Assembly (NCBI RefSeq): GCF_902788255.1 | Contig: NZ_CADAJR010000021.1 | Span: forward strand, 1 to 45,276 | DNA length: 45,276 nucleotides | Direction of reading: 5' to 3' | Source of the DNA: an uncultured Methanobrevibacter sp. | Lineage (GTDB): Archaea; Methanobacteriota; Methanobacteria; Methanobacteriales; Methanobacteriaceae | In this document: positions 26,906 to 45,276 of the stretch, in pieces | Layout: each line of letters begins with the position of its first letter | Numbering within the stretch: the stretch's first letter is position 1 | The notes under the pieces: model-generated | Told to the model about the DNA's origin: nothing | The model's input: only the letters and a program-made list of their open reading frames with translations | The model's database searches: none | Program-made: the position numbers and the translations under genes

Positions 26906-29900
26906 TTATTTTTTAACTGTTATCTTGTTTGTAATCTTAACTTTTCCATAACTGGTTTTTATTGTATATTTGCCGACCTTAAGCTTTTTGACTTTAATGG
27001 TTGCAATACCCTTCTTATTTGTTTTGGCTGTGTATTTCTTGCCTTTAATTTTAAAGGTCAGTTTTTTACCCTTCAAGGCCTTGCCTTTGCTGTTGACCAG
27101 TTTGGCTTTAAATTTAAGGGTTTTGCCTTTCTTGATTGATTTGTTTTTTGCAGTCAATGTTGATTTGATGGTTATTTTATTTGAAACCTTAAATCCTTTA
27201 TAGTTAACAGTAACAGTGTATTTGTTTACTTTGAACTTGTTAAGTTTAAGGTTGGCAAATCCGTTTTTGTCTGTTTTAACCGAATAGACTTTTCCATTAA
27301 CAACAATTTTGACAGTTTCGCCTGAAATGGCTTTGCCGAAATCATCATGGACTCTTAGTTTATAATAGCTGTTTGCCCCATAATACATGACAATGTTTCT
27401 GTTATCACTTAAACGTGGACGAACCTCAATGTTTTGGCTAACACTCTCATTGTTGTTTGGATTGGTGATTGTAAGTACATATTTTCCAACACCCCAATCA
27501 ATAGGCAGAATAATTTCCCCATTTTCATCACTGACCTTTTCAAATTCCCTGTTGTTTAAGGTAAAAATCAATGCCTTGCCTGAAATGCCCTGGCCGTACT
27601 GGTCATGAAGGACAAGCATATAATTTGAATTAAAGCAATACACATTACTTGAAGGAAGATCCATTTTTAACAATATTTCAAATGTCAAATTCGCATGTGA
27701 AGCGTTATAGCTTCCAGATTCATAAGTCACATCAACACCATATATCCCGTCAGCCAGACTGAAAGGTATGGTTGCGTTACCATTGATAAGATTCAATGTT
27801 TGTGTGGCGTTATTGAATTTGACAATGATTCTACCGTCTTTTACAGGTCTTTTGAATTGGTCAACCACACTTACTGAAATGCCACCTCCATTGACAGAAA
27901 CATCCACAGTAGTATTGTATTTTGCCAATTGAGTGAATGCCTTTATGCATGCAACCTGAGATTTGTAGGTATGCAGCGCATAGGTTTTTGAAAGATAAAA
28001 GAGATCCTCCCAGTTTACGCCGTCATAGCTTACATATGATATCTCAGGATAATAGATTGCCTTGTTGAGTGATGCAATCTCTGAAATCGGCACGGAAGAT
28101 AATTTTTCTGAAGTTGTGTTAAAGACTATTTCAAATATGTCCCCTTTATATAACGGTACAACATCATCCAAATGGAAAGTATAATAGCCCGCTTTGGACA
28201 TTCCACTTTTAACTGTTTTCAAAATGCCATTCACATAAACCGATAATGTCCAATTGGTTAATTTTTCGAAGTATGTTGAAACTCCAGACAGGATTTCATT
28301 GTCTGTGGCTGTGAATTTGTTCTTGTACCATACAGATGTCCTGTCATCATGCAGATAATCAGTCTTACCTGCTATATCATACTGATAATTTTTATCGTAT
28401 TTTACAGTGTCATTTAAAATAAATGTATAAGCGATTCCTTCAACGCCAGGTTTTGCAAATGACTCGTCATAATATGACACATAGAAGTAACCATTGTCAC
28501 CCCAATTTGGTCCCCAGCTGTTCTTCACTATCCATGCACCATCACCTGCAGCGTAACTGCCGAAATAGAAATTGTCCCTTGAATAGGTATCATTCCATCC
28601 CACAATTGTCACTGCATGGTTTGAAGGATAAAGTGCCCAAGTGAAATAGTCCTTTCCATTGTTTAGATAATAGTTGTCAAAGTATATTGAGGTTCCGACT
28701 GCACCATATTTCAGGATAGCGGTTTTAATTGCATCATTGTCTGTGTAATTGTCCCTTTTCAAGAACAGTATATTTTGGATATGCAATATGCTGTTTAAAA
28801 CCGGTGATAAAACTGATTTGTCATCAAACAAATCTGAAGTTTCATTTACAGGACCCAGCCAACTTGCAAAATAACCGAATGGCATGGAATCATATCCTCC
28901 TTCATTGGTATCCATCTTCCAGCCATAATCGGAATACAGTGCAATCAGATTTTTCATGTTTTCCTCAGACAGGTCAAATTCTGTTCCTGTTGCCTTTTTA
29001 AGGCAGGACTCCAATACCGCCATGGCTGTAAATGCCCAGCAGTTCCCGCTTGACTGTTGGTCTTTAACTTGTGACACCAATCCCTCATCCACTAAGCTGT
29101 AATAGCTAGGAAAGTCAGTGATTTCAATGTCTTCAGCATTATAAATTGTATAGTTTTCCCCACCAAGATGGACGTTTAAATCCTTGGAGTCAATATAATC
29201 CTTGTCCATTGGAGCGTTGTTATTGTTATAATGATTGTTCTTTATAGGCAATCTCAACTTGCTTAATAGGGAATATACTGCTCCAGCTTGAATTTTGGCA
29301 TTGTTATTTTCAAATGAGTTGGAAAGCAATACCAAATCTGTGGAATTGTCTATGAATAATGCTCCTCCGTTTCTTGCAGAGTTATTATTAAACACTCCAT
29401 ATGTGGATGCAAAAGTACCGTACATATGATAAACAGATCCACCATCCCATTTTGCGGAGTTATTATAAAAATTATTGTAATTCAGTGTTACTGCACTGTT
29501 TAATGTGGTTATTGCACCTCCAAATGTTGCCGAACAGTTGATGAAATCAGTGTGGTCAACCTTAAGTGGAGATGATTTGATATAGATTGCACCGCCGGCA
29601 TCATCAATAGTATAGTCCTTAATGAATTTTGATCTTGAAATGGTTACGTCTGCTGTATTTTCACAGGCTATGGCTCCACCGAAATTATACGCATAGTTGT
29701 TTATGAACCTGGAATTTGATACGCTCAAATAGCCTGCGCCCATGTATATCGCTCCACCATAGACGGCGTAACCTCCTTCGAATGTGCAGTTGTTTATTGT
29801 CACTTTGGAATTGGCATTCAAGTCAGATGTGTAGATTGAACCTCCATAATTATTTCCATAACTGTCAGGTGCACTGCCATACCCATAGTTAAAAATGGTG

Positions 29901-30370
29901 TTTGTGGCATTGAGGGTTCCTGAATTTGTAATTGATAAATCCATTAATGTGACATTGGTCAATGTTAAAAGGGAATTCACTCTGAATCCTACACCGTCAT
30001 ACCTGATTATTGTCTTGGTGGGATTGGACCCTATAATGTTTACCTGTTCGATTGCCTTATAATCATCTAGATTATATTCCCCATTGGCCAAATGGATGTT
30101 GCAGTTTCCCTTAATTCTTTCCACAGTCAGATATTTATATGGATTTTGTGATGATCCATCACCATTATCGTCTTCAAGTGATGCATCGAAATAATAATCG
30201 TTATTAGCAGTTAATGCGTCATCATTATAATCTATAGCAATGGTTGTCTGGTGGTCATCAAGCTGAACTACGTCAGCTGTCTGGTTATTTATTGCATAGC
30301 TTGACGGAATTATAAATATCACAAGCAATAATGCCATAAGAATAATTTTATGATATTCAGCCATTTTCAT
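26906..30370 (-). CDS. Surface protein: beta-helix, papain-family protease, Ig-like repeats
   Basis: A signal peptide covers residues 1-26 (LLLVIFIIPSSYA). Residues about 50-390 form a Pmp-like right-handed beta-helix with GGAIYM, GGAIAC and GGAIYI turns. Residues about 425-640 are a C1 peptidase with the whole active site: Q438, C444 (SGNCWAF), H585 (SNHAVTIVGW) and N617 (KNSWGPNWG). Next comes the lectin-like domain often linked to archaeal C1 proteases, about 665-770. Four or so Ig-like domains follow, ending in a lysine-rich one. The protein is probably exported and held at the wall by that basic tail, where it may cut proteins or peptides. The third codon is also ATG and has a better spacing from GGGGG. 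Confidence 0.9.
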   Translation of the reverse strand: MKMAEYHKIILMALLLVIFIIPSSYAINNQTADVVQLDDHQTTIAIDYNDDALTANNDYYFDASLEDDNGDGSSQNPYKYLTVERIKGNCNIHLANGEYNLDDYKAIEQVNIIGSNPTKTIIRYDGVGFRVNSLLTLTNVTLMDLSITNSGTLNATNTIFNYGYGSAPDSYGNNYGGSIYTSDLNANSKVTINNCTFEGGYAVYGGAIYMGAGYLSVSNSRFINNYAYNFGGAIACENTADVTISRSKFIKDYTIDDAGGAIYIKSSPLKVDHTDFINCSATFGGAITTLNSAVTLNYNNFYNNSAKWDGGSVYHMYGTFASTYGVFNNNSARNGGALFIDNSTDLVLLSNSFENNNAKIQAGAVYSLLSKLRLPIKNNHYNNNNAPMDKDYIDSKDLNVHLGGENYTIYNAEDIEITDFPSYYSLVDEGLVSQVKDQQSSGNCWAFTAMAVLESCLKKATGTEFDLSEENMKNLIALYSDYGWKMDTNEGGYDSMPFGYFASWLGPVNETSDLFDDKSVLSPVLNSILHIQNILFLKRDNYTDNDAIKTAILKYGAVGTSIYFDNYYLNNGKDYFTWALYPSNHAVTIVGWNDTYSRDNFYFGSYAAGDGAWIVKNSWGPNWGDNGYFYVSYYDESFAKPGVEGIAYTFILNDTVKYDKNYQYDIAGKTDYLHDDRTSVWYKNKFTATDNEILSGVSTYFEKLTNWTLSVYVNGILKTVKSGMSKAGYYTFHLDDVVPLYKGDIFEIVFNTTSEKLSSVPISEIASLNKAIYYPEISYVSYDGVNWEDLFYLSKTYALHTYKSQVACIKAFTQLAKYNTTVDVSVNGGGISVSVVDQFKRPVKDGRIIVKFNNATQTLNLINGNATIPFSLADGIYGVDVTYESGSYNASHANLTFEILLKMDLPSSNVYCFNSNYMLVLHDQYGQGISGKALIFTLNNREFEKVSDENGEIILPIDWGVGKYVLTITNPNNNESVSQNIEVRPRLSDNRNIVMYYGANSYYKLRVHDDFGKAISGETVKIVVNGKVYSVKTDKNGFANLKLNKFKVNKYTVTVNYKGFKVSNKITIKSTLTAKNKSIKKGKTLKFKAKLVNSKGKALKGKKLTFKIKGKKYTAKTNKKGIATIKVKKLKVGKYTIKTSYGKVKITNKITVKK

Positions 30371-30375
30371 TCCCC

Positions 30376-30415
30376 CAAAAAAAGAAAAAATAAATAGAGA
30401 TTAATTATAATCCCT
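30376..30415 (-). terminator. Hairpin and T-tract terminator of the 2931-aa adhesin gene
   Basis: An 8-bp stem with one G-U pair (30396-30403 with 30408-30415) overlaps the stop codon (30414-30416) and is followed on the minus strand by a T-rich run (30391 down to 30376). It separates this gene from the protease-adhesin, whose start is 43 bp away. Confidence 0.7.
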
Positions 30416-33400
30416 ATCTTTTAACTCTTAAAGTTTTCTTAACAACGTCCTTACCGTAGATTACTTGGAATTTGTATTTTTTACCAGCTTTAAGTTTTTT
30501 AAGTATACTTTTCTTAATCTTAAAGGTAGCAACACCTTTCTTATTGGTTTTTGCTTTTATTTTTTTGCCTTTAATCTTAAGGGTAATCTTTTTGCCTTTA
30601 ATAGGTTTCTTCTTAGATGTTTTTAAAGTTACTTTAATCCTAACTTTTCTAGCTGATTTTTTAATCTTTGTGTTTTTAGCCTTGATAACATTTTTGACAG
30701 TGACTTTAACTGTTTTTGACACCTTGTTGTAGGTCACTTTGGCAGTGTACTTCTTAGGTTTTACTTTCAATGTGAATTTAGCATAACCGTTCTTGTCAGT
30801 TTTTGCCTTTAATGTTTTTCCAGCTATTTTCAAGGTTACGACTTTACCTGCACCAACGGATTTACCATTGATTGTAGCGCGAACCTTATATTGGAATCCG
30901 TAATCCACTTTGGCATTGCTTGCAACCACTTTAATGACATCTTTAGCCGGTGGGGTGACCGGATCTTCAGATGACTTGTTGTTGTCAACTTTTACATCTG
31001 AGTTGTTCAATGCAATGGTTGCATCTCCTCTCTTGCCGTTTGCAATCAATTTGTTATTGACAATTGATCCGTTACATCCATTCAATGAAATTGTCTTGTT
31101 TCCTGTTGAAGTGATGTTGTTGTTTTCAATTGTAACATTTGAGTTGTCTGCATAAATGCCCAATGTTTCGATAGGGTTAACCATTGGGTAATCGTCTGCA
31201 GATTTACCTACATTTGTACCGTTGGCATTGATTGTGTTGGCCTTAATGGTTGCATTTGCATTTTTGACACCGATACCGATAGTGTAGTTACCGTTAACGG
31301 TAATTTCATTGCCGTCAATTTCAGTTTCATTTGTAACCAGAGACAAACCATATGCAGTGTTAGAGTCAACTTCAATAGTGTTGTCGACAATTTCTAAACT
31401 GGTATCATGAATACCCCAATTGTCAGCATATATACCATATCCAACATCTTCTGATTCAGCAGTGATGTCATTTCCGTTAAAAGTTGCGGTTGTTTCTCCT
31501 TGTACAGAAACACCTGCCGCATAATGGTCATCTGAAGTTACATCAATTGTGTTGTCTTCAAGGGTTATGTTTTTGCCTGAAACCTCTACACCATAGGCGT
31601 ATTGGTGACCGTTCAATTCAATGTCGTTTCCAGCGATGTTTGCATCATCACAACCTGCAACTCTTAAACCGTAAAGTGTATCTGAATATCCTGCAGATTT
31701 ATTGTAGTCTACGATAACTGTGTTGTCCTCAAATGTGAGGTTTTTACAGTTTTCAAATTCGATTCCGGCAGACAATACCATAGGAGCATAATCAGGTGCA
31801 GGACCATAACCCACATCAACGGATGGAACTGAAGCTTTGACATTATTATCGCTTACAACCATATTGTTAGAGTCAATTGCAAATATTGCCATGGTCCTAG
31901 TTGCCTCACCTAACTTGCCCTCATAGAAAATGTCGTTTTCAATCAATTTGGTTCCATCAGAACCATCCACATAAACAGCGTATGATTCACCGATTGGAGC
32001 GTCATAATCGATTGTGTTATTTTCTATTATATTGTTTTTACCTTCAACATAAATGACTGCATTGTTGTCGAATTCCTTATCAGCAACAAATTTGATGTTT
32101 TTAACAGCCACATTGTCGGCCTTGATGTAAAGAGCGGTGTTGTTGAACAGTGCACCGTCACCGGTTATGTTGATGGCCTTGTTTAATTTGAGTGTTCCTA
32201 AGTCTTTGAATTCTCCTTGGAATATGAGTTCATCGAATGGAACATTAGCTTTCATTACACCGTTTTCATCGAAGAAGTTACCTATTGTTTCCGGAGTTAC
32301 AATGTTGTTGATTCCAGTGACTGTAAGAGTTTTGGTAGCTTCACTAGCACCGAACTGTTCGGTTGTGTCAATGAATTTGGCCTTGATATCATAGGTTCCG
32401 ATGTCTTTGGAAATTAAAATGCTTTGCTTAGCTGTTCCATCCACAACAGGAATTGTTGCTATTAAATCTTCACCGAAGTAAAGTTCAACTTCTCCCTTGT
32501 TGACGACAGTTCCGTCATCGGAAGTTACGGTGATTGTGTATTCTACAGAGTCACCTTTTGCTGCGGTAATGTCATCCATTGCGATTGTTGTTGGAACAGT
32601 GTTTACGAATAACACTTCCTCATCGCCACCAACTTTTGCGGAGATGTATTTAATGCCTGTTGCATCTAAATCGTGAGTGAATTCACCGTTGGACAATACT
32701 CCTTCAATATCTCCCTTGTTAGTGGAGATGGTTACTGGGATTTCAACATTGACAGGACTGTCCAGTGCATAAACGCTTTCACCGTCAGTATATGAATCAA
32801 TTGCTACGGTTAATTTTACGATGTTTCCATCCTTGATTTCGGTGTCATTTTTAATGGTCAATATTGCCCAATTGTTTACGGTCGGTTTGTATTTGTTGTT
32901 TCCGCCTACAAATGCACTTGGATCAGCATTGGTTCCCCACCAATTCTTATTGGCAGTTATGGATGGGTTGATTTGTTCTGTTGCATATCCGTAAACTGAG
33001 ATGTTGTTTGCATCATTGTTGTTTATGAATACGGATTTTTCAACATTTACTGTGGTAGCTCTTGAATATATTGCTCCACCGTTTGCATCAGCAGTGTTGT
33101 TTTCAAATAAAGTGTCAGAAATGGTTAATTTACCTTTTCTTTCATAATTTGAGGTTCCAACCATGTAGATTGCTCCACCGCCGGTACCGTCCTGACCGTT
33201 AGCATGGTTTGCAATGAATTCGGAGTTTGTGATTTTCATTTCAGCTTCGGAGTGTGAAATGAATATTGCTCCACCGCTTGAAGTGGTCAATGCCTTATTG
33301 TCCTTGAATGTTGTGTTGTCAATGGTCATTCCAGCAATTTGCTGAGCAAATATTGCTCCACCACCGTTGTTTTCATTACCATTAGCAACGTTGTTTTCAA

Positions 33401-36400
33401 TTACGGAATTTTCAATATTGATTGTTGCTCCTTTAGCAAGACCTGTACCTGAATAGATTGCTCCACCAAGTTTAGCGGTGTTGTTTGCAATAGTTGAGTT
33501 GATGATAGTCAAGTAACCAACATTGTAAATTGCTCCACCGTTATTTTCACCGGCTGTTGAATTAGCTAATGTACAGTTAATCAGGGTTAAATAGTTTGAG
33601 TTTCCGAGTAATGCACCGCTTTCAACTGCATTGTAACCGTTGATCATGATTAGGTTTTTAAGAACAACTTTTGCATCTTCACCTACGTAAAGGAGTCTGT
33701 TGCTGTTGTCCGCATCGATTACAACTTTTCCTTCACCTGTAATGTTTAGGTTGTTGGAAATGATTCCTAAATCACCGGTTTTATAGGTACCTTCTAAAAG
33801 AACGATTTGACCTTTTTTAGCGATTTCAACTGCATGAGCCAATGTTTTTACAGGAGCGTCAATAGATCCTTCGTTTGCATCGTCACCTTCAGGAGATACA
33901 TAGATTACATCAGGAATATCACTGATGAGTACTGTGAACTGAGGAACTCCACCTAATGAGACGAGAATTTCCTTATCCGCTTCATCTACAGTGTATTTGA
34001 AAGTGATTTCTTTGCCTTTGCTTAAAACAACTTCGTTTAATTTACCTGAATCAGAAGTGAAACTCACTTCGACACCGTCTGGAATTTCATTTGAAAATAC
34101 AGCGGTGATTGTGATTTCATCGCCTGCAACAGCATCTTTAGGGTCAACAGTCACATCCAATGTGATTTTACTGTCTTCACTAATGTCGATGTTTGCTTTT
34201 GTATTATTACCCCAGTAGTTGTTGTTGGCGGTAATGACTGTGGTTGCTTTTTCTTTCTTGTCTATTGCATATTTGTCGTCACCTTCTTTGCTGATGATGA
34301 TTGAATTTGCAATATCGAATGTACCTTGGTCGGTATTCACATAGATTGCAGAACCTGCATCTCCAGCAGTGTTGTTAATGAATACACAGTTGTCAATGCT
34401 CATTGTGGATTTCAGATCATCCATAGTTTGATAAATCGCTCCACCTTGACCTTTAACATATTCTCCACTGTTAGCCTGGTTGTTGGTGAAAGTGGAATCC
34501 TTGATTGTTGTTGGGGTTCTTCCGGCAAATATTGCACCAGCAGTACCTTCAACTGCAATATTGTTGTCAAAAGTACAGTTAGTTACTTCCAATGTTCCTT
34601 TAGTTGCAGAGGAAGCTCTGGTTGCATAGATTGCACCTGCTGATTTAGCTTTGTTATTTCTGAATACTGTGTTTTCAACTACAGTGTCAGCAGAAGCTGA
34701 ATAAACGATACCGTTTGTATTTGTTAATGAAGTCATGTCATTTCCAATGAATTCAGAATTATTGATTAATAAGTCTGTTTCTGATTGTGATGCAACAACT
34801 CCTCTTTTTGCAACATTTTCAGAGAAGTCACAGTTATCAATGACCATTGTGCCTTTTCTATTGTTAATAATGTTTCCGCTGGATCCGGTAGCTTGGTTTG
34901 AATAGATGTTACAGTTGACAATTGTTGAATTTCCGTCATTTAAAAGCACTGAACCGAAAGCTGATTTTGCATTTGTAAATGCAATATTGGTTAGATTAAG
35001 GTTTGCAGTGTTTTCAAATATTCTTAAGGAATTACCGTCAATGACAACATTTCCTTGACCTGAAATATCTAAATCCTTATTAACAACCAATGTTTCAGTG
35101 ATTACATAATTACCGTTCAGGATTACGATTTTACCTTTCTCAGCAATTTCCATAGCATGTTTGATTGTTGCTACAGGAGCATCCCTTGAACCGATGTTGT
35201 TGTCGTCACCGGTCATGGATACATAAATCACTTCCAATACGATAGGTTCTTCCACAGTCACGGCAGTGGTATTCACTGCATCAGTAGATGTGATTGTTAC
35301 GTTGTTCACTCCACCGTCAGTGGCTGTGAATATGAATTTAGCAACATTGTTTTCGGTTGTTGCCTTATCCTTGTCCAATTCGCCGTAAACTGCACTTGCT
35401 TTTACTTCAACTTCAGGGATTGAATCAGTCAATGCCTGTTTGTTTACATCATGAGTGAAGTCAACAGTGAATTCAGCCTTATCTCCAACTTTTAATGCGT
35501 CTGCGGTCAAGTTGTTTGACACGGTCATTACAACCCAATTGGATGAGTCAACGTCAGCGCATGGAACTTCATCTTCCCAGTCGTTCTCATAGGTTCCTAC
35601 ACCATTCAATGAGCTAGGGTCATCATTGGTTCCCCACCAGTTGTATTGGGCGTTGACAACATTGTCATCACCGTCATTGTAAATCAAGTATTTTGTACCG
35701 TTGGTTAAAAGTACACAGTAATTTACGGAAAGCTTGTTTCCATTGTAGATTGCATCACCATGATATCCGCTGCTGGTTACTGTGTTGTTGATGAATACTG
35801 ATTTAGTTACAGTTGCATCTCCAAGGAAACCAACATAAATTGCTCCACCATCTCTAAATGCTTTATTGTTGATGAAATTGGATTCAGTGACTGTTAATGT
35901 AGAACTTGCACGAATAACTCCACCGTATGAAACAGTGTTTGTGTTGTTTATAAATTCTGAGCCTTTTACATCAATTACTGTATCTGATGAACCAATCAAT
36001 ACACCTTGTCTTGCAACGTTATTGGTGAATTTTGAGTTTTCAACAATTAAATTGCCTTTTCCGGATGAAATGTATACAATTCCATAATCGGATGAAGAAC
36101 CGGTTACGGTGTTGTTGTCAAATGTGGAATCGGTAATTGTAATGTCATAGTTGCCGGAACTTTTTATTACATCACCGCAGGTGTTGTTTGCAAATTTGGA
36201 TTTGCTTACAGTCAATTTACCGTTGTTTGTGATGAGGTTTCCACTAGTTGGATTAGCGATTACATTTACATTTTCCAAAATCAGTTCTTTTGCGTAACTG
36301 TAAATTACGCTGCCGTAATATGCATTTCCGCCGGTTAATGTTAAATTGATTAATGTCAATTTGGCAACGTTAGCGGAAGATGCCACATTGAATAATCTTC

Positions 36401-39209
36401 CTTGTCCTTCTCCATTAAGCACAACATCTCCAACACCGGTAACTTTTAAGTCCTTGGTGACTTCATAATTTGTGCCAGTGTATGTACCTGCATTTACGAT
36501 GATTTCACCGGATCCTCCGTTAATGGATGCAAGTTCAATAGCCTTTGCGATGCTTGCAACAGGATATTGTTCGGAACCGTTGTTGTTGTCATTACCTTCG
36601 GTTGACACATAGATGATGCCATAGTATGGTTCAACACCTTTTGCAAGTTTAATGTCCACATTAGCTTCGCCACATGTTGCCTTAATAAGGGCAGTGTTGT
36701 CGGCGGATGTGAAGATTACATCTTGGGTTTTTCCGTTTTTAACGACTACTTCATCCTGTGAGAATGTACCGTTTTGGGAAGTGAGTTTGACAGTGTATGA
36801 ATCGATTGGGATTACTCCACCGGTCAATTCCTGAATCTCGCCGGAAGTTGTGTTTACATGGTTAAAGTCTATTGTCAATTTCACTTGGTCTCCTGAAATC
36901 ACTTCAGTTGCGTTTGCAACGACATTCATGATTACCCAGGAGTCCATAGTTATGTTTTTACCTTCAACTTTTGAGCTAGGGTCATTAGTTCCCCACCAGT
37001 TATTGTTTGCAATTACAACACCTTGACCGTAAACAGCATCATAACCTGTAGCTGTACGTGTTTCGATTGATAAGTCATTAATCAATGATGAATATGAAAT
37101 TTCAATCAAATTCATGTCAGCATAGATTGCAGGTAAAGTCTGACCGTTTCCATTGTTGTTTTCTATTACACAGTTGGTAATAGTTGTTTTTGTTACACTA
37201 CCTGAAACAGGAGTTGTACTTATTGCAACACCCTTTCCGCCAGCAGTGTTGTTTGAAATTACACAGTTGTCAATGGTTGCAGTTGCATTATATAAGTATA
37301 TTGCACCAGGTGCGTTAGCTGCAGTGTTTTCAATGAATTTAGAACAGATAATGTTTACATTTGCAGCTCTTAAATATACTGCAGCACCATTGTTTGCTTT
37401 GTTACCTTTGAATATTGAATTTGAAATATCAACAGTCAATCCGTCAGCCTGGGATGAAGTTGCAATGGTTATTGCTCCCCAGGAACCGCTGTCAATATTA
37501 TAGAATTTGGAGTCCTTAACTGTCAATTTACCTTTAGCGGTTGCAACATAGAATGCTCCACCTCTTGAAGTGGAATTGATATCTGTAAATGTACAGTTAT
37601 TGATTAAAATGTTTATATCAACGTATGAACCAGCATTGATAGCTCCACCGTATCCTGGATTGTTGTTTGTAAATACGATGTTGGTGAAATTTGCAACTCC
37701 ACCATCCATTACAAAAATACTGGTTGAGCTTGCCTGTCCGTCGATAACAACATTACCGTCACCGATAATGCTGATTGGTTTGGAATTGTTGAGTTCAATT
37801 CCGCTTTCCTTGTATACTCCTTCCTTGATGACAAGATAACCTGATCCTGCATTTGCAAGTTCGACACCTTTAGCGATTGTTAAGACAGGACTGTCTTCAG
37901 AACCGTTATTATCATCACTACCGTCAGTTGCAACATAAATTGTTCCTTCAGGATATTTAGGTTCAGGACCATCATTCAATCCAGGAATGATTACATCAAT
38001 TGCTTCGCCAGTGTTTAATTCATAAGCACCGTTGTTTTCCACAATCCAATTTGATGCAGTAACACCATCTGGTAATGAATTGGATCCCCAATAGTTTGCA
38101 TCTAAATTGTAGGAGCCTGAAGAAGGATGATTGACACCCAAATTGACAGTGTTGTTCTGGATGTTATTGTAATTTAAAGTAAAAGATGATGTTGCAGTAT
38201 TGGAAGCTGCAATGTATTTAGGTCCAGAATTGTTCGCAATCATACTTGATTCTATATTTACAGTTTTACTCCCTGCAGATATAAAGAATAAAGAATTATA
38301 GTCATTGCCTTCTGAAAGAACATTGTTAACAAATCTGGAATTTTTTATTTCCATATTTCCTTTAGCAGTGATAAGTGCCCTTCCTTTACCAGTACCCTGG
38401 AAATTGCTAATGGTCACATTATCTAATACCACAGTACCTGCACTTTTCTCATTGTACAAAACACCAAAAATATAGGATCCAGTATGTGCACTGGATATTC
38501 CTGAATTGTCAATGATGGAATTCTTCAATACATACTCAGTATCTCCACTACCACCAAAGTCTATAGCACTTGAATAGGCACCATTTGATGATTTTGTGCC
38601 TAAAAACTTACATTGGTCAACAATCACACTACCTGAAGTATATATGCGCAATGCACCATATCTAGATTCACAGTTGTCAAATGTACAATTTGTTATAATA
38701 ACATCATCATTTCCACCAATGAATATTGGAGTTTTAGCTTTAGTCATTACAATCTCTTTAAAAACCAAATTGTTGAAAACCAATGTGCAAGAACCAGACC
38801 CTGTTGTATAAAATAAGTCATTATCTCCGGATTTAATAATTACTCCATCAGGAGACTCACCGGTAAAAGTCAATTTCTTTGTACCGATGTCAATCTTTGA
38901 GGTTTCTGTATATTCTCCGTTCTTAATAAAAATAGTTTCCCCACCAGTGGCTGCGCCAACAGCGGCGGAAATTGTTTGATAGTCCCCACTACCACCTGCA
39001 TCAACAGTGATAGTGTCTCCCTCAGCACTTAACTTGTCCTGACTGTCCGAAACGCTTAGCTCTTCATTGACGATTTCGCCAATTTCTCCCTCCGTATCGG
39101 TTGCTGTCAAGTTTTCGTCAAGTGGTTCATTAGCGCTTGCGGTTCCAATAATGCACAGCATCACGAGCACCAAAAGCGCACATATTAAAAGTTTTTTATT
39201 AATTTTCAT
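30414..39209 (-). CDS. Giant adhesin-like protein with five beta-helix modules
   Basis: The 2931-aa protein starts with a signal peptide (cleavage after TASA, residue 26). Five beta-helix modules follow, each with Pmp-type GGAI and FxNN repeats. Modules 2-5 begin with the same signature, IYVSxxGxDxNxGS, near residues 423, 865, 1327 and 1767, a period of about 440-460 residues. Modules mostly close with a NWWGTN-type motif and an Ig-like domain (KLTIDF, AEFTVDFTH). Residues about 2310-2700 form another type of beta-helix with NNI and GxxI turns. The last 190 residues are Ig-like and very rich in lysine. The protein is exported and probably binds host, plant or partner cells. No LPXTG anchor or membrane tail is seen. 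Confidence 0.92.
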   Translation of the reverse strand: MKINKKLLICALLVLVMLCIIGTASANEPLDENLTATDTEGEIGEIVNEELSVSDSQDKLSAEGDTITVDAGGSGDYQTISAAVGAATGGETIFIKNGEYTETSKIDIGTKKLTFTGESPDGVIIKSGDNDLFYTTGSGSCTLVFNNLVFKEIVMTKAKTPIFIGGNDDVIITNCTFDNCESRYGALRIYTSGSVIVDQCKFLGTKSSNGAYSSAIDFGGSGDTEYVLKNSIIDNSGISSAHTGSYIFGVLYNEKSAGTVVLDNVTISNFQGTGKGRALITAKGNMEIKNSRFVNNVLSEGNDYNSLFFISAGSKTVNIESSMIANNSGPKYIAASNTATSSFTLNYNNIQNNTVNLGVNHPSSGSYNLDANYWGSNSLPDGVTASNWIVENNGAYELNTGEAIDVIIPGLNDGPEPKYPEGTIYVATDGSDDNNGSEDSPVLTIAKGVELANAGSGYLVIKEGVYKESGIELNNSKPISIIGDGNVVIDGQASSTSIFVMDGGVANFTNIVFTNNNPGYGGAINAGSYVDINILINNCTFTDINSTSRGGAFYVATAKGKLTVKDSKFYNIDSGSWGAITIATSSQADGLTVDISNSIFKGNKANNGAAVYLRAANVNIICSKFIENTAANAPGAIYLYNATATIDNCVISNNTAGGKGVAISTTPVSGSVTKTTITNCVIENNNGNGQTLPAIYADMNLIEISYSSLINDLSIETRTATGYDAVYGQGVVIANNNWWGTNDPSSKVEGKNITMDSWVIMNVVANATEVISGDQVKLTIDFNHVNTTSGEIQELTGGVIPIDSYTVKLTSQNGTFSQDEVVVKNGKTQDVIFTSADNTALIKATCGEANVDIKLAKGVEPYYGIIYVSTEGNDNNNGSEQYPVASIAKAIELASINGGSGEIIVNAGTYTGTNYEVTKDLKVTGVGDVVLNGEGQGRLFNVASSANVAKLTLINLTLTGGNAYYGSVIYSYAKELILENVNVIANPTSGNLITNNGKLTVSKSKFANNTCGDVIKSSGNYDITITDSTFDNNTVTGSSSDYGIVYISSGKGNLIVENSKFTNNVARQGVLIGSSDTVIDVKGSEFINNTNTVSYGGVIRASSTLTVTESNFINNKAFRDGGAIYVGFLGDATVTKSVFINNTVTSSGYHGDAIYNGNKLSVNYCVLLTNGTKYLIYNDGDDNVVNAQYNWWGTNDDPSSLNGVGTYENDWEDEVPCADVDSSNWVVMTVSNNLTADALKVGDKAEFTVDFTHDVNKQALTDSIPEVEVKASAVYGELDKDKATTENNVAKFIFTATDGGVNNVTITSTDAVNTTAVTVEEPIVLEVIYVSMTGDDNNIGSRDAPVATIKHAMEIAEKGKIVILNGNYVITETLVVNKDLDISGQGNVVIDGNSLRIFENTANLNLTNIAFTNAKSAFGSVLLNDGNSTIVNCNIYSNQATGSSGNIINNRKGTMVIDNCDFSENVAKRGVVASQSETDLLINNSEFIGNDMTSLTNTNGIVYSASADTVVENTVFRNNKAKSAGAIYATRASSATKGTLEVTNCTFDNNIAVEGTAGAIFAGRTPTTIKDSTFTNNQANSGEYVKGQGGAIYQTMDDLKSTMSIDNCVFINNTAGDAGSAIYVNTDQGTFDIANSIIISKEGDDKYAIDKKEKATTVITANNNYWGNNTKANIDISEDSKITLDVTVDPKDAVAGDEITITAVFSNEIPDGVEVSFTSDSGKLNEVVLSKGKEITFKYTVDEADKEILVSLGGVPQFTVLISDIPDVIYVSPEGDDANEGSIDAPVKTLAHAVEIAKKGQIVLLEGTYKTGDLGIISNNLNITGEGKVVIDADNSNRLLYVGEDAKVVLKNLIMINGYNAVESGALLGNSNYLTLINCTLANSTAGENNGGAIYNVGYLTIINSTIANNTAKLGGAIYSGTGLAKGATINIENSVIENNVANGNENNGGGAIFAQQIAGMTIDNTTFKDNKALTTSSGGAIFISHSEAEMKITNSEFIANHANGQDGTGGGAIYMVGTSNYERKGKLTISDTLFENNTADANGGAIYSRATTVNVEKSVFINNNDANNISVYGYATEQINPSITANKNWWGTNADPSAFVGGNNKYKPTVNNWAILTIKNDTEIKDGNIVKLTVAIDSYTDGESVYALDSPVNVEIPVTISTNKGDIEGVLSNGEFTHDLDATGIKYISAKVGGDEEVLFVNTVPTTIAMDDITAAKGDSVEYTITVTSDDGTVVNKGEVELYFGEDLIATIPVVDGTAKQSILISKDIGTYDIKAKFIDTTEQFGASEATKTLTVTGINNIVTPETIGNFFDENGVMKANVPFDELIFQGEFKDLGTLKLNKAINITGDGALFNNTALYIKADNVAVKNIKFVADKEFDNNAVIYVEGKNNIIENNTIDYDAPIGESYAVYVDGSDGTKLIENDIFYEGKLGEATRTMAIFAIDSNNMVVSDNNVKASVPSVDVGYGPAPDYAPMVLSAGIEFENCKNLTFEDNTVIVDYNKSAGYSDTLYGLRVAGCDDANIAGNDIELNGHQYAYGVEVSGKNITLEDNTIDVTSDDHYAAGVSVQGETTATFNGNDITAESEDVGYGIYADNWGIHDTSLEIVDNTIEVDSNTAYGLSLVTNETEIDGNEITVNGNYTIGIGVKNANATIKANTINANGTNVGKSADDYPMVNPIETLGIYADNSNVTIENNNITSTGNKTISLNGCNGSIVNNKLIANGKRGDATIALNNSDVKVDNNKSSEDPVTPPAKDVIKVVASNAKVDYGFQYKVRATINGKSVGAGKVVTLKIAGKTLKAKTDKNGYAKFTLKVKPKKYTAKVTYNKVSKTVKVTVKNVIKAKNTKIKKSARKVRIKVTLKTSKKKPIKGKKITLKIKGKKIKAKTNKKGVATFKIKKSILKKLKAGKKYKFQVIYGKDVVKKTLRVKR

Positions 39210-43372: not shown

Positions 43373-43554
43373 TTTCATAATCACTTTTATCTAATGATGC
43401 AAGAATACCATGACCTCTTCAAGGTCGTGGATGAATTGCATTAAATGAGGGGGGTTAGATAGGATTGGACGATTACTCGTCCGCACCCTCTTTGGAACCG
43501 TACGTGTCCGTTAGTCAGATAAGATTGAGGCATTACTGCCTCGCACTCTCAGAA

Positions 43555-43588
43555 GAACCGTACGTGTGCCTTTTAGCACATACGGCTC
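43555..43588 (-). ncRNA. Domain V of the inner group II intron
   Basis: A 34-nt hairpin with the canonical lower helix GAGCCGUAUG paired to CGUACGGUUC, a 2-nt bulge (CA), an upper 4-bp helix and an AAAA loop. The catalytic AGC triad is in place. It lies 19 nt after the stop codon of the truncated reverse transcriptase. Confidence 0.92.
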
Positions 43589-43607
43589 AAATAGACCATT
43601 ATCTTAA

Positions 43608-44115
43608 TCAATTTGACAACTTAATCTGTCGATTTTTAAAGTATTCAGATTTATCACTATCAAAAGGCGAATAATTATGTTTAATCATTATATGCCTTTT
43701 GTCAATGTTAGTCCACCTCATTTTAACTAATTGACGACCAGAAACTGGGTCAGTCAAAATCCACCTATCTTGATGTTTATCTTCAGGCTTAGGATCAGGA
43801 AAATATTTTCTTCTAATCCATTTCCATCCTTTTTTGGGATGTAGATGTTTTAGGAATTTCTTGACTTTAATCCAAATATAATTATCCATCTTTTCAAATG
43901 CTACTGTGGAAACCATGGGTTTCCAATAATTTACAAGTCCGATAATCAATGGATTAAGAGCATCAATTAAATCCCCAACATTATGCCCTTTCATAAGTTC
44001 AAATCTTTCTGCGATTTTAGTTCTGGCATTCTTTAGAGAATCTTTAGATGGTTTAATGAAACATTTGTCTCCATCCTTAGTGTGCCTTTGCCTAGTTTCA
44101 AAACCGAGAAAATAT
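43608..44115 (-). pseudogene. Truncated group II intron reverse transcriptase/maturase (C-terminal part)
   Basis: The frame begins inside FLGF (about 44115), the segment just after the reverse transcriptase palm, and runs through the thumb/maturase X domain: FIKPSKDSLKNARTKIAERF, LIDALNPLIIGLVNYWKPM and HLHPKKGWKWIRRKYFPDP, ending at 43608. Everything before FLGF, including the YADD active site, is missing. The first methionine in frame is at 43994, but that does not make a functional protein. It is clearly related to the outer intron's enzyme, yet differs at many positions, so the two are not recent copies. No HNH endonuclease domain follows. Confidence 0.85.
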
Positions 44116-44533
44116 GTTATCGGAGGACTGCAAATGGCTTACCAAGTTAATCTCCCGTCAGATACGAATAAGGGAAGGTTCAATCTATACACCGGCAAAT
44201 ATACAGGTTGCGAAAATATAAGTATGTCCAGACTACTTATTTCTTATTTGCAATATGATAGTAGCAAAAAAAAATTTTGCGTTGTATTCCACCTATCACT
44301 GCCGCTAACGATGCTTACAATTGTTCACATAATGTTAACCATTCTTATTCTTTCTCTTGCCCTTTAATGATTGAATACTATCATTAAATTAGGCTTTTTC
44401 TTCATGCAACTTCCTAAAATCCGTTACCAGACTAGGAATTTTAGAGGAGAAAATCCCACACAACAGGGATTAAAATCTCGCAATCGAGACTTTACTGACA
44501 TTAAAAGGGTTAGGAGACCCTATCTTGTCGCAC
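44116..44533 (-). other. RNA part (domains I-IV, 5' side) of the inner intron
   Basis: About 415 nt from the GTGCG start to the deletion point. It carries no protein frame of the intron type. Plus-strand ORFs here (44056-44367, 44371-44577) resemble nothing. Several short inverted repeats fit a folded domain I. The deletion point lies near 44115, where reverse transcriptase similarity starts abruptly. Confidence 0.6.
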
Positions 44534-44584
44534 CCGAACATAAGGCTCGAGCAGAACTTTATCCGAATGTTCAATAATGATATT

Positions 44585-45276
44585 TCATCGATTCATGAAA
44601 TAATCCTCTTTACTTTTATCATATGGTGAATAATTGTGTGTTATCATTTTATGTCGCTTAATCTTAGTCCAGCTCATTTTAATTAAATGATTCTCTTCTT
44701 TAGGGCCAGTTAATATCCATTTTCCACGATGATATCCGTCGTCGTATTCTGGGAAATATTTTCTTTTAATCCATTTCCAGCCTTTATTTTGGTGCAAACG
44801 GCGCAAAAACTTATATATTTTGTTCCATATATAGTAATCCATATCAGAAAATGTCTTTTTAGCAACAGTAGGTTTCCAATAATTGGCAGCGCCAATTATT
44901 AGGGGATTTAAAGAGTCTATCAGACTGTCAACGTTGTTTCCGTGATGCCATCTGACTCTTTCAGACACTTTGGCTTTAAAGTTCTTGATACTATCTTTTG
45001 ATGGTTTAATCAAACATTTTAATCCTTTGTTTGTTTTGTATTGTCTGAAATTGAATCCTAGAAAATCAAATCCTTGAGAAATGTGTGTAATTTTAGTTTT
45101 ATCTTCTGCAAGTACCAGTCCTCTCTCAAAAAGGTAGTTTTCGAGAATTTTAGGTACTTTTTCGATGTCTTCTCTGTTTCTTGCGAAAATAACGAAATCA
45201 TCGGCATATCGAGTAACACGATATTTTCCTTTAGTTTCATAAAATTCTTTGGTTTCACCATTTCGTATTTGAGTTC
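44585..45276 (-). CDS. Group II intron reverse transcriptase/maturase, partial
   Basis: The frame is open from the window edge to the stop at 44585-44587, giving 230 residues of the C-terminal half. The catalytic motif RYADDFVIFARNRED is near 45205, followed by LVLAEDKTKITHISQGFDFL and FNFRQYKTNKGLKCLIKPS. The X domain is NPLIIGAANYWKPTVAKKTF and HQNKGWKWIKRKYFP. No in-frame stop is seen, so this copy may be active, and its start lies outside the window. It ends without an HNH endonuclease domain. Only 36 bp separate its stop from domain V. It might serve both introns. Confidence 0.9.
   Translation of the reverse strand, partial: TQIRNGETKEFYETKGKYRVTRYADDFVIFARNREDIEKVPKILENYLFERGLVLAEDKTKITHISQGFDFLGFNFRQYKTNKGLKCLIKPSKDSIKNFKAKVSERVRWHHGNNVDSLIDSLNPLIIGAANYWKPTVAKKTFSDMDYYIWNKIYKFLRRLHQNKGWKWIKRKYFPEYDDGYHRGKWILTGPKEENHLIKMSWTKIKRHKMITHNYSPYDKSKEDYFMNR

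Follow-up and report, generated by a model that had tools for sequence, protein, structure and literature searches.

The first twintron to be described, that of the plastid psbF gene of Euglena gracilis, consists of a group II intron that interrupts domain V (DV) of an outer group II intron; it is an organellar element located within an essential gene, and its two introns are spliced sequentially (PMC8393795). In prokaryotes, the group II twintron of Trichodesmium also interrupts the outer ribozyme, and sequential splicing is therefore required; its insertion is in domain I (DI), within a protein gene, both introns carry reverse transcriptases (RTs) and splicing has been shown (PMC4649490). 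The TeI3/TeI4 introns of Thermosynechococcus elongatus, cyanobacterial introns of class IIB1, are adapted to a fixed site in another intron and include ORF-less inner introns, and some of them also target insertion sequence (IS) elements; they insert into domain IV between two ATGs and leave the outer ribozyme core unbroken (PMC2882425). Within the Archaea, the introns of Methanosarcina acetivorans repeatedly home into other group II introns without affecting host genes, the described targets being intron ORFs (PMC4424553), and according to a 2022 survey, the group II introns of Archaea belong mostly to Halobacterota and Thermoplasmatota (PMC8919778). A search of the open-licence literature found no published description of group II introns in Methanobrevibacter, which is weak evidence of absence. 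Homing into related intron ORFs of M. acetivorans is reportedly also the subject, to go by its title, of a 2003 study by Dai and Zimmerly.

Here we analyse a nested intron locus in a 45,276-nt contig of an uncultured Methanobrevibacter sp. (the window, that is the whole stretch of DNA that was analysed). Like psbF, the window contains a group II intron inserted in DV of another; unlike psbF, the locus is archaeal and intergenic in an apparent IS remnant, its inner intron is truncated and its target is explained by a match to the exon-binding site EBS1. DV twintrons as such were therefore already known, and the novelty originally suggested for this insertion site is unsupported in view of psbF; what is new is an archaeal, EBS1-explained and decayed insertion in the DV loop.

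Architecture of the nested locus

An outer group II intron, visible in its 3' part, occupies the minus strand near the right-hand end of the window; its DV is split by a shorter inner group II intron, in the order outer RT C-terminus, DV 5' strand, a single G, inner intron, TAA, DV 3' strand and domain VI (DVI) (Table 1). All coordinates of the original prediction were verified base for base in the window sequence, and the twintron that it described is borne out by this verification, by an empty site in the same genome and by complete EBS1 pairing (see below). The inner intron begins with GTGCGAC at 44533 and finishes with ATCTGAC at 43514, beyond which the strand continues from 43513 as TAACGGACACG; it thus has the GUGYG start, the AY end and the DV-DVI of group II introns, with AAAA as its DV loop. 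The covariance-model check that had been proposed (Rfam RF00029) succeeded for the inner DV-DVI, which it matches from 43590 to 43514 (49.5 bits, E 7e-7), and gave no match to the interrupted outer DV, as expected for a split hairpin. The contig end at 45276 falls within the outer RT gene, and the 5' half of the outer intron lies beyond it. The visible part of this RT combines RVT_1 (Pfam, 5e-11) with GIIM (1e-16), the signature of an intron-encoded RT/maturase, and matches NCBIfam TIGR04416 partially (126.6 bits, the cut-off being 300). Among solved structures, PDB 6me0, a T. elongatus-type intron RT, is the nearest homologue of the family RT.

Table 1. Features of the nested locus and of the DVI-inserted introns of related genomes
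Feature	Position	Strand	Basis or remark
Outer group II intron, visible 3' part	43454..45276	-	94% match to C39
Open C-terminal 229 aa of the protein encoded by the outer intron	44585..45274	-	RT palm end with YADD and maturase domain
Outer DV 5' strand and first loop base G	44534..44548	-	GAGCCTTATGTTCG 44548-44535, G 44534
IBS1 GTTCGG, homing target in outer DV upper stem and loop	44534..44539	-	pairs with inner EBS1
Inner group II intron with internal deletion, 1,020 nt	43514..44533	-	empty site C39; alignment to full-length relatives
EBS1 hairpin loop of inner intron, GTCTGGACA	44225..44233	-	alignment; EBS1 = CTGGAC (44231-44226)
Deletion junction in inner intron	44084..44103	-	part of DII fused to RT thumb region
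Remnant of inner intron RT (maturase/thumb), 128-aa ORF	43608..43994	-	Pfam GIIM 5e-14
Inner DV and DVI, intact	43514..43590	-	Rfam RF00029
Outer DV 3' part	43495..43513	-	loop TAA 43513-43511 and CGGACACGTACGGTTC 43510-43495
Outer DVI and 3' end CTAAC	43454..43494	-	outer 3' end reads ...CTATCTAAC at 43454
3' exon repeat resembling IS200/IS605-type element end	43385..43453	-	recurs at C39, C45, C35, C13, C50, C8, C26
DVI-inserted introns	L067 (G117:C1:1947939), L123/L075 (G122:C16), L111 (G050:C23), L112-L116 (G116)		DVI 5' strand

The inner intron is precisely flanked by the two outer parts, and empty copies of the outer intron exist. The assembly of the same genome (G000; 69 contigs, 2.2 Mb) has an uninterrupted outer copy on contig C39, 94% identical to the window outer sequence up to 44534: C39:2142 corresponds to 44534, C39:2144 onward corresponds to 43512 onward, and the single base in between corresponds to 43513. 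As the C39 flanks are contiguous at the insertion point, the insert extends exactly from 44533 to 43514. This sister copy also has the 5' part of the intron (GUGYG end, DI to DIV). It is the only outer 5' half in the assembly, against several 3' halves, and near-identical 5' halves have therefore probably been collapsed. Different intron copies could also have been joined wrongly in such a repeat-rich draft, several contigs of which, including that of the window at 45276, break inside intron copies. However, both junctions are base-exact and the target matches the inner EBS1, a kind of end that mis-joins do not yield, and no second copy of the inner intron is available in the assembly for joining; we regard an assembly chimera as extremely improbable.

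Uninterrupted outer introns, which the original prediction had recommended as a check, were thus found on C39, on C45 and C18 (two further intact DVs of the outer type) and in G083, but their loop is GAAA or GCUAA, never the GUAA tetraloop that had been proposed. The nearest uninterrupted DV-DVI is that of G083 (two contigs), in which about 85 nt are identical to the joined window flanks bar two changes, a G for T at 44543 and the loop GGCTAACGG for GG|TAACGG. The unusual GCUAA pentaloop is shared by G083, G070 and G071, GAAA is found in the own-genome copies and in other species, and GUAA is absent from every intact relative compared. Likewise, the exact target GG|TAACGG is present in no intact relative; the closest loop is GGCTAACGG, from which the window would be derived by the loss or sharing of one C where the insert meets its 3' flank. 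The pre-insertion target was probably TTCGG|CTAACGG; less probably, it had a GUAA loop. With either loop, the first base of the DV loop lies on the 5' side of the insertion and the others on its 3' side.

Target recognition and genomic context

EBS1 was located by aligning 21 intron 5' regions, in which positions 3-8 of a 9-nt hairpin loop act as EBS1. In the window, the inner EBS1 CUGGAC pairs with GUUCGG at 6/6 positions, two of the pairs being G-U. Over 29 distinct candidate intron starts, a few of which are chance bacterial matches, EBS1 and the six nucleotides that immediately precede the 5' splice site are paired at 147 of 174 positions; when exons were permuted among introns (20,000 shuffles, which ignore shared ancestry), the mean was 74.6 paired positions (s.d. 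6.8) and the maximum 103. The targets vary even among close relatives (GTTCAA in G039a, ATATAT in G045, AAGTAA in G097a). EBS2/IBS2 were not located, the first hairpin loop being apparently too conserved to track exons. As a test of GA against GAC as the end of the inner intron, a candidate EBS3 was sought; its best column reaches 9/13 under strict pairing and, in the window copy, pairs with neither T nor C.

Related introns that interrupt RT genes confirm the 3' end rule (RAC|), as the reading frame resumes exactly across their junctions (GATTTT|...CCGAC|AAGGCT in G039b; GATTTT|...CCGAC|ATCATC in G094c). By this rule, the RT-nested copies favour GAC rather than GA as the end of the inner intron. 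Since its junctions match the ends of these independently nested relatives and EBS1 pairs with IBS1 at all six positions, the insertion is not a chance resemblance. The empty site, the two intron ends and the pairing of EBS1 together support a group II twintron in which the inner intron occupies the DV terminal loop of the outer one, and we infer that EBS1-guided retrohoming into DV is the simplest and best account of it.

The 3' exon of the outer intron is a hairpin-bearing repeat, which is found in G000 both beside introns and at intron-free sites; on C26, it adjoins a degenerate IS200-type transposase ORF (Y1_Tnp, 2e-7). The outer introns thus appear to target the ends of IS200/IS605-like elements, and we place the locus in a putative intergenic IS remnant. 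Nothing obviously depends on its splicing. Elsewhere in the window, two very large repeat-rich ORFs of 2,931 and 1,154 aa (30414-39209 and 26906-30370, both on the minus strand) look like methanogen adhesin-like surface proteins; a papain-like stretch can be recognized by eye in the smaller one.

Decay of both introns

Alignment with the full-length relatives G097a (2,253 nt) and G045 (2,236 nt) shows that domain II of the inner intron continues directly into the RT thumb region at position ~431-450; about 1.2 kb is missing there, comprising domain III (DIII), DIVa and the RT palm with most of the RT. The missing stretch includes a segment that is kept in 12/12 aligned relatives and has a consensus fold with a GTCGAAAGAC hairpin; its position and motif predict that it is DIII, and the RT palm and DIVa are located 3' of it. 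The catalytic core is thus incomplete in comparison with all full-length relatives, and the inner intron, although of group II ancestry, is a truncated ribozyme. The ORF-less copy on C13 of the same genome retains the RNA domains missing from the window intron and offers a candidate model of a functional ORF-less intron in this family. Three loci carry ORF-less derivatives whose RT deletions fall at comparable positions: L066 (G071:C55), L120 (G070:C37) and L021, the C13 copy itself (G000:C13:25775-26664).

The outer intron has also changed. Joining its flanks re-forms the DV and DVI hairpins, with the AGC triad and an AY-type 3' end, as had been predicted for the DV stem, except that T44543 creates a U.C mismatch in it. 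All 26 other distinct DVs have a G at this position (26/26), and the predicted folding energy of the joined outer DV is -11.5 kcal/mol, against -17.3 kcal/mol with the G of the relatives. This G-to-U change is probably helix-breaking and disabling. Because of the internal deletion (DIII, DIVa and most of the RT) and of the outer DV mismatch, it is probable that neither intron splices now and that the locus is a relic.

The same two lesions leave unsupported the ordered splicing implied by the original prediction, namely that the outer intron awaits the departure of the inner one. In such a working nested twintron, the inner intron would be excised first, aided in trans by the RT of another intron, after which the restored DV would allow the outer intron to splice. 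The canonical inner ends, the EBS1-IBS1 pairing, the intact inner DV-DVI and the open visible part of the outer RT are all compatible with this scheme; trans service of ORF-less introns is known in T. elongatus (PMC2882425), and trans rescue of the degraded inner intron is conceivable in principle. Nevertheless, the inner intron has lost the DIII segment that every relative examined retains, and the restored outer DV would still be U.C mismatched and about 6 kcal/mol weaker than with the G of its relatives. We consider sequential splicing at this locus very unlikely.

The intact inner DV-DVI, which belongs to the same intron family, could instead replace the interrupted outer DV, so that the 5' part of the outer intron would be spliced as a single composite unit at 43514. 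Precedents exist: Clostridium tetani introns with repeated DV/DVI choose different 3' sites (PMC4424553), and zombie twintrons are known to splice as one unit (PMC8393795). If true, the inner DV-DVI would act as catalytic and branch domains for the outer intron; two group II ribozymes would have exchanged domains in nature, and the 3' splice site would have moved to 43514. However, the inner DV loop is AAAA and not GNRA, and the rest of the outer intron is outside the visible sequence; composite splicing seems unlikely to us.

Nested introns in related genomes

Under the patterns used, the DV insertion is unique among 139 genomes of the family. The pattern GAGCCNTATGN{2,8}GTGYGAC has the window as its sole match in this set, and a search of the 3' junction pattern retrieved the window and one unrelated site. 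The pattern GAGCYGTATGN{3,7}GTGYGACNNG has no match in 152 genomes of the phylum, the window itself (GAGCCT) being unable to match it. A scan of 84,980 species gave 8 matches, none with a credible downstream DV 3' half, and IMG/VR gave 2; both sets are attributed to chance.

Insertions in DVI are recurrent. When the 139 family genomes were searched with a pattern for introns that start immediately behind DV, nine junctions were detected, spread over four genomes and two genera (one in G050, five in G116, one in G117 and two in G122); a reversed control pattern had zero matches. At most of these junctions, GAGAGA in the 5' strand of DVI precedes GTGCGACAAGATAGG, and the EBS1 of the inserted introns is UCUCUC, the perfect complement of GAGAGA. 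In G117, in silico excision of the inner intron joins GAGGAGAGA to AGGAGTGAGCAATCACTCC and restores the DVI hairpin; this inner intron encodes an open 513-aa RT with RVT_N, RVT_1 and GIIM, in which a domain search detected no endonuclease domain. In G122, the second copy sits in the DVI of the first, that is in its own kind. The DVI insertions would thus represent recurrent homing by one related lineage, unlike the single DV case. The same DVI-twintron 3' end was also observed in front of three different flanks in G116 (L117, L118 and L119, on C31, C36 and C59); this would reflect either movement of the entire composite or separate homing of the inner intron into every one of the outer copies. 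Other nested introns lie in RT genes, at DNA coding for the FEGDF, YADDF and FNFLGF motifs, and one lies in DI of another intron (L064, at G094:C31:147, 349 and 1906; L059, on G039:C1; L062, on G047:C102); EBS1 matches the target where this can be tested.

Discussion

The history that we propose, and hold with good though not complete confidence, is EBS1-guided homing into the outer DV followed by decay to what is most likely a non-splicing relic. A distinct, mobile relative of the resident outer group II intron would have retrohomed into it, its EBS1 loop pairing with GUUCGG of the outer DV and reverse splicing occurring after the first loop base. Later, the inner intron would have lost its internal 1.2-kb segment, and the outer DV would have gained its disabling G-to-U change. 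Such a non-splicing relic has most likely been tolerated because it is located in an intergenic IS remnant. The locus would be one instance of a wider habit among Methanobacteriaceae introns, which home into each other; one lineage is dedicated to DVI.

This habit recalls the repeated homing of archaeal introns in M. acetivorans (PMC4424553), with other targets: the DV loop in the window, and DVI and RT ORF motifs in its relatives. Unlike the T. elongatus insertions in domain IV (PMC2882425), that of the window breaks the outer ribozyme core, as the Trichodesmium insertion does at another domain (PMC4649490).

What these loci may mean for the family lies in the choice of target. Few parts of group II introns are as conserved as domains V and VI, so that an intron which acquires pairing with them gains landing sites that can be used again. 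Such use is seen once for DV, in the window, and repeatedly for DVI, in its relatives, including insertion into an intron of the same kind. These loci offer natural experiments in EBS1 retargeting, in the rescue or replacement of broken ribozyme cores and in intron-on-intron parasitism in Methanobacteriaceae.
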